From contig CANHNJ010000011.1 of NCBI GenBank assembly GCA_947462105.1, forward strand, positions 1 to 64,000: a stretch of DNA of 64,000 bases, read 5' to 3'. Below the pieces are notes generated by a model. That model saw only the letters and a program-made list of their open reading frames with translations, ran no database searches and had not been told where the DNA came from. The first letter of the stretch is position 1. Each line of letters starts with the position of its first letter. Below are positions 1 through 533 of the stretch, piece by piece. A program made the position numbers and the translations under genes. The stretch comes from Alphaproteobacteria bacterium. Lineage in GTDB: Bacteria; Pseudomonadota; Alphaproteobacteria; Micropepsales; Micropepsaceae.

Positions 1-482
1 CCAAGAAAATCTCCGAACTTCGACGCGAAGAACTTTATCGCTGCATTCGGGAAATGGCAGTAGCGGTCGGCGTCGGCGCTGCCAGCGTGGAGGAGATTGA
101 TCTGGTGAACATCCGCCAGGCAACGCATCTGGCAATGGCGCGCGCGGTTCGGGAGCTCACCGTACAGGCCCATTTCGCGCTGGTGGACGGCAATGACGCG
201 CCCGCCCTGCCCTGTCCCTGCGAGACGCTGGTTGGCGGCGACGGAATTTCGGTTTCGATCGCGGCGGCCTCGATCATCGCCAAGGTGACGCGTGACCGGA
301 TGATGATGGCACTGCATGACGAACACCCCGGCTACAACTGGCGCAGCAACAAGGGCTACGGCACCGCCGACCACCTCCAGGGCCTGAAGACCTGCGGCGT
401 AACGATTCACCATCGCCGTTCTTTTTCCCCGGTACACAACATCTTGTATGGGGATGAATCCGGGACTCAATTTCCCAAGTAA
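1..482 (+). CDS. rnhB: Ribonuclease HII, 3' part (5' end outside window)
   Basis: Cuts the RNA strand of RNA-DNA hybrids, including single ribonucleotides left in DNA. The reading frame is open from the window edge, so the N-terminus with the first catalytic acidic residues is missing. What remains shows the family's C-terminal half: SIAAASIIAKVTRDR with its conserved downstream Asp/Arg, the GYGTADHLQGL segment, and HHRRSFSPV near the end. It stops 78 bp before ccrM on the same strand, an order often seen in alphaproteobacteria. Two GANTC sites of the ccrM promoter cluster fall inside its last 30 bases. Confidence 0.93.
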   Translation, partial: KKISELRREELYRCIREMAVAVGVGAASVEEIDLVNIRQATHLAMARAVRELTVQAHFALVDGNDAPALPCPCETLVGGDGISVSIAAASIIAKVTRDRMMMALHDEHPGYNWRSNKGYGTADHLQGLKTCGVTIHHRRSFSPVHNILYGDESGTQFPK

Positions 483-533
483 TTGATTCCGCAAGACTCT
501 TGACCGCCGAATCGCGGCGACTCACTGTGAATC
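456..533 (+). promoter_or_regulatory. Cluster of seven GANTC sites at the ccrM promoter
   Basis: GANTC, the CcrM recognition sequence, begins at 456, 464, 485, 495, 509, 519 and 529. Two copies lie in the end of rnhB and five in the gap before ccrM. About 0.3 would be expected by chance in a stretch this long. The last four steps are 10, 14, 10 and 10 bp, close to helical spacing. A TTGACC at 500-505 could be a -35 element. In Caulobacter, ccrM is known to be controlled by methylation of GANTC in its own promoter, and GcrA acts at such sites. Autoregulation here is inferred. Confidence 0.7.

Follow-up and report, generated by a model that had tools for sequence, protein, structure and literature searches.

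Why would the gene for a DNA methyltransferase be preceded by a dense cluster of that enzyme's own target sites? The question is raised by the end of a contig from a Micropepsaceae bacterium (Alphaproteobacteria; assembly GCA_947462105.1), where seven copies of GANTC, the CcrM target, lie just upstream of ccrM. We analyzed the first 64 kb of this contig (C11, accession no. CANHNJ010000011.1, from a draft genome of 2.17 Mb), referred to below as the window. The reading that we favor, with somewhat better than even confidence, is that the cluster belongs to a methylation-read, probably GcrA-assisted autoregulatory promoter of ccrM, with a putative NrdR operator upstream.

Seven CcrM target sites precede ccrM in a GANTC-poor window

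The seven GANTC sites begin at positions 456, 464, 485, 495, 509, 519, and 529, exactly as a preliminary description of this DNA had listed them, and an eighth begins at position 404, inside rnhB. The gene downstream of the cluster (561 to 1646, plus strand) was confirmed as ccrM, encoding an adenine DNA methyltransferase, by a match to the NCBIfam CcrM model (E value of 1e-190, which falls below the cut-off of that Caulobacter-trained model) together with N6_N4_Mtase and RAMA domains. Directly upstream of ccrM lies rnhB (3 to 482, plus strand), which encodes ribonuclease HII and is truncated by the contig start. The cluster had been placed in the gap between the two genes; this holds for sites 3 to 7, whereas sites 1 and 2 lie inside the rnhB frame, whose stop codon occupies positions 480 to 482.

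That the cluster exceeds chance was borne out, although the background estimate of about 0.3 sites per 78 bp had been too high. The window contains 85 GANTC sites versus 238 expected from shuffled sequences, so the motif is avoided, and its own density predicts only 0.10 sites per 78 bp. Because the window avoids GANTC, the cluster stands out more than had been assumed: the Poisson probability of at least seven sites in 78 bp is ~2e-11 at this density. Outside the cluster, neighboring GANTC sites in the window are never less than 23 bp apart.

The sites are positioned relative to a predicted core promoter

The spacing of the sites had been taken to place them on nearly the same face of the helix. 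This phasing holds only within subsets of the sites: with a helical repeat of 10.5 bp, sites 2, 3, and 4 lie ~70 to 100 degrees away from sites 1, 5, 6, and 7. The helical-face model was also rejected on spacing among relatives, in that sites 4 and 6 are a fixed 24 bp apart, which does not correspond to whole turns, and site 5 shifts by ±1 bp. The GANTC positions instead follow a predicted −35 element (500 to 505, plus strand; TTGACC) and a predicted −10 element (523 to 528, plus strand; CACTGT, which is poor except for A2 and T6). Relative to these elements, for sites to which strand does not apply, site 3 (485 to 489; GATTC) falls in the UP-element region ~15 bp upstream of the −35, site 4 (495 to 499; GACTC) directly adjoins the −35, and site 5 (509 to 513; GAATC) and site 6 (519 to 523; GACTC) fill the 17-bp spacer, with site 6 overlapping the first base of the −10. 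Site 7 (529 to 533; GAATC), which is optional, lies between the −10 and the predicted transcription start at ~535. A scan for the sigma-70 consensus detected no promoter at ccrM because the predicted −10 is too weak.

We compared this arrangement with 37 distinct ccrM promoters from the same genus, at loci oriented beforehand; here and below, loci within groups are related, such that the counts overstate independence. The preliminary description had allowed that relatives might conserve neither the number nor the spacing of the sites and that transcription might start far from the cluster. We found the array in 37/37 genus promoters, usually with six or seven sites and most commonly with spacings of 9-20-10-14-10(-10) or the variant 10-19-9-15-9, and the predicted start coincides with the downstream edge of the cluster. 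TTGAC is present in all 37 (and in many other promoters), and site 6 begins at +19 from the start of TTGAC in every one. Sites 5 and 6 are likewise retained in 37/37, site 4 in 36/37 (its central base always being C), and site 3 in 35/37, while site 7 is found in only 11/37. Within the genome under study, a related core pattern matches at ccrM only. Since the distance of sites 1 and 2 to the promoter varies, the cluster is, on this predicted layout, two modules rather than one array: core sites 3 to 7 and upstream sites 1 and 2.

These data also bear on whether methylation is what matters. The sites might instead serve sigma-70 or DNA structure, with their methylation being incidental, and sites 4 (GACTC) and 6 do abut the promoter hexamers, with a central base that hardly varies in the genus. 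Site 5, however, argues otherwise: all four central bases occur in the genus, and it is found at +8, +9, or +10 with variable flanks, yet it remains GANTC in 37/37, 59/59, and 47/56 spacers of three sets, versus 1 to 3 in shuffled sequences (~1/37 for the genus). Constancy with a free central base, free flanks, and positional wobble points to selection on the methylation site rather than on sigma contacts, and the avoidance of GANTC elsewhere in the window is also at odds with an incidental role, which we consider very improbable. Judged from these comparisons, the genus array is under selection, which at site 5 acts on the methylation site itself.

The core recurs at ccrM across Alphaproteobacteria

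Outside the genus, TTGAC followed 18 to 20 bp on by GANTC was found in 118/178 distinct ccrM promoters, with a distance of exactly 19 bp in 115. The recurrent form is TTGAC...GANTC-A-N3-T. Among these 118 promoters, 109 also carry site 5, 92 carry site 3, and 10 carry site 4; a CANNNT −10 is present in 154/155 core-bearing promoters. Across the class, the central base of site 6 is A or C in 151/152 and the base that follows the site is always A; all four bases occur at the center of site 5 in the class sample.

GANTC density in the 150 bp preceding the gene was 19.6 and 21.6 per kb in two samples, versus ~1 to 2 per kb in most flanks. The pattern TTGAC-GANTC-GANTCA had 73 matches in 289 class genomes compared to 4 for a reversed control, and 51 of the 59 matches in genomes with a located ccrM fall 24 to 150 bp before that gene. 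On a CcrM tree, which is unrooted, the core is scattered over deep branches and requires 10 changes, a distribution that fits an old feature that has been lost several times. The core was not seen at the ccrM genes examined from Caulobacter segnis, Aminobacter, and Hyphomicrobiales.

GcrA as the leading candidate for reading the sites

The positional conservation of target sites within the ccrM promoter argues that CcrM probably senses its own marks and, through them, probably sets its own level. In the mechanism that we propose, sites 4 to 7 border or occupy the −35, spacer, and −10, and initiation probably requires a sigma-70-binding factor that reads methyl-GANTC; such a helper is probably needed because the −10 is weak and its first base is overlapped by site 6. 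CcrM would thus set the methylation of the sites governing its own gene, creating a feedback loop that would be renewed at each replication.

GcrA would be the best candidate for this reader, and a GcrA-read loop is our first choice because of the spacer position of the sites, the methylation preference of GcrA, and the presence of a GcrA gene in this genome (C3:19932-20351; PF07750, E value of 1e-47). GcrA prefers fully methylated sites to hemimethylated ones, and these to unmethylated ones (PMC3667746). A CGACTC in the −35/−10 spacer of ftsZ is required for its activation by CcrM (PMC3708114), and Caulobacter promoters with GANTC between the −35 and −10 turn on at 40 to 60 min, in early S phase (PMC4287350). 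An extended GcrA motif, YGAKTCG, is reported from Haakonsen et al. (PMC7987155). Site 6 carries the reverse of this motif, CGAMTCR, in 36/37 genus promoters, the window included. The A/C preference at site 6 is not explained by the −10 A and fits the K of YGAKTCG.

Two observations weigh against this reading. First, the strict core does not track GcrA: among 151 class genomes with a listed ccrM, it was present in 42/121 with a PF07750 match and in 9/30 without one (P = 0.67, Fisher's exact test), although split or divergent GcrA proteins may have escaped the PF07750 search. Accordingly, other readers may exist besides GcrA, or divergent GcrA proteins were missed. Second, the extended motif keeps its trailing C/G only within the genus. 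Outside the genus, the full YGAKTCG was found at site 6 in only 14/118 core-bearing promoters, and only GAMTCA is kept, the final A of which doubles as the −10 A.

With regard to the sign of the control, we lean toward a promoter that is activated in the methylated or hemimethylated state, as at ftsZ, over one repressed by full methylation. The latter would amount to a Caulobacter-like negative feedback: the promoter would be turned on by hemimethylation behind the replication fork and shut off once CcrM had methylated it fully, with the many sites serving to firm up the shut-off. This corresponds to the model of the preliminary description, with repression. The steeper, cooperative switch proposed there for the seven sites would be a further possibility, hinted at in print only by the larger GcrA footprint on fully methylated ctrA P1 (PMC3667746). 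Caulobacter ccrM has indeed been modeled as active only when hemimethylated (PMC2217572), and the GcrA footprint is larger on fully methylated ctrA P1, where it covers the −35 to the −10 and might block RNA polymerase (PMC3667746). The position of ccrM in a complete relative (G027; single 4.64-Mb contig, C1) would also suit such timing, since the gene, at 1.14 Mb, lies nearly opposite parB, at 3.53 Mb, and, provided that parB is close to the origin, would be replicated late; however, GC skew sampled along this genome located neither origin nor terminus. The core is nevertheless also kept in Rhodobacterales, where ccrM tends toward the vicinity of the origin (PMC8116508), implying that fork-timed hemimethylation alone cannot be the common logic, and a full CtrA box is present in 0/37 genus promoters. 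We therefore regard negative feedback of this type as rather unlikely.

A possible NrdR operator lies upstream of the core

Sites 1 and 2 accompany a different element. Site 1 (456 to 460; GAATC), at the 3′ end of rnhB, lies between site 2 and an NrdR-like box, box 1 (434 to 449, plus strand; ACACAACATCTTGTAT), that overlaps the rnhB 3′ end and has one mismatch to CACWANATNTWGTG, which we take to be the NrdR consensus. The box core, C[AT]ANATNT[AT]G, is present in 129/214 distinct ccrM upstream regions, compared to 0 for the reversed pattern and 2.5 for shuffled sequences. In the genus, site 1 is usually present, 18 to 19 bp from the box core, and every one of 32 members has a GANTC at +27 to +29 relative to that core, with a distance from this GANTC to the −35 of 32 to 64 bp. 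The distances between the box and the −35 cluster near 50, 61, 71, 82, and 92 bp in a small, related sample, which suggests helical phasing.

Whether the box is an NrdR operator is a closer call, there being nearly an even chance that it simply reflects conservation at the end of RnhB (His-Asn-Ile-Leu-Tyr) or serves a different factor. It lies within the rnhB frame at ~100/129 loci. On the other hand, it lies outside that frame at 21 loci, and its Leu codon is TTG in 107/108 cases, compared with 21% for the remainder of these rnhB genes, a sign of constraint on the DNA itself. NrdR requires two boxes, the second 15 to 16 bp further on, for a pair spacing of 31 to 32 bp (PMC12051234). At ccrM, the second is a half box at best, but its score peaks, out of 116 offsets, at 32 in the genus and at 31 in other lineages, matching the known pair spacing. 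In the window, the ACTCAA (465 to 470) at site 2 (464 to 468; GACTC) resembles the left half of such a second box. The genome also encodes NrdR (C33:12880-13311; TIGR00244, above the cut-off) and has a perfect NrdR-like box 274 bp before nrdJ; this box is without an obvious partner at 31 to 32 bp, whereas two boxes spaced by 32 bp are found at nrdJ in a distant relative. An NrdR operator upstream of ccrM is thus possible. Together with sites 1 and 2, the box would form a separate upstream operator that may tie ccrM expression to the supply of deoxynucleoside triphosphates (dNTPs). Our literature search did not find a link between NrdR and ccrM.

The array was absent at six other GANTCTTGAC sites examined in the same genome. 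At three further ccrM upstream regions (L011, L012, and L035), where the rnhB end is different, a related CACAAGATGTGGTGG is located at the same place in the opposite orientation.

Other features of the locus

The predicted ccrM leader contains a DnaA-box-like sequence, TGTTGATAA (538 to 546, plus strand), which is TGTGGATAA in several relatives. A DnaA-type match downstream of the −10 was found in 27/37 genus promoters, compared to 0 for a reversed control, and is rare outside the genus. Brilli et al. (PMC2877005) noted that DnaA sites are predicted at ccrM chiefly in cases that lack CtrA sites. Further downstream, three tandem genes for thioredoxin-fold proteins (DsbA-like, Thioredoxin_4; 3282 to 5334) are followed by a gene for an SMC protein (5382 to 8837).

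Implications and comparison with known systems

The control of CcrM levels outside Caulobacter is largely unexplored, and a comparative survey that counted GANTC before cell cycle genes did not permit a conclusion about regulation (PMC2877005). We tentatively propose, as a generalization that we hold at a little below even confidence, that a widespread alphaproteobacterial ccrM promoter combines a CcrM-methylated sigma-70/GcrA core with an NrdR operator in which one of the boxes overlaps a CcrM site, and so would couple methylation to dNTP supply; the CtrA-driven promoter of Caulobacter would then be the exception. Since the position-exact core is common to many lineages, it offers specific bases for mutation in relatives that can be cultured, for example, Rhizomicrobium electricum, which is among the named close relatives, or Rhodobacterales. 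A genuine NrdR box would join a dNTP-sensing repressor to the DNA methylation cycle.

Caulobacter ccrM, with which this locus had been compared, is a poor template. The Caulobacter crescentus promoter likewise drives ccrM and carries GANTC sites. It is described as CtrA driven, with two GANTC sites (PMC10073500), which "most probably" influence promoter activity (PMC3973325). The layout at C. segnis differs, however: unlike the genus studied here, its ccrM region is without the TTGAC-GANTC-GANTC core and without a tight array. CtrA control of the genus promoters was rejected, as TTAA-N6/7-TTAA occurs in none of them.

The NrdR operators of ribonucleotide reductase genes share with this locus the box sequence, the 31- to 32-bp partner offset, an NrdR gene, and the perfect nrdJ box; at ccrM, by contrast, the second box is shrunk to a half site over a CcrM site, and the target would be ccrM. 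Similarly, GcrA/sigma-70 promoters such as ftsZ, mipZ, and ctrA P1 of Caulobacter share GANTC between or beside the −35 and −10, the YGAKTCG motif (here at site 6), and a GcrA gene. Whereas one conserved core site has been described for these promoters, the ccrM promoter studied here interleaves two to four, and its target is the methyltransferase gene itself.
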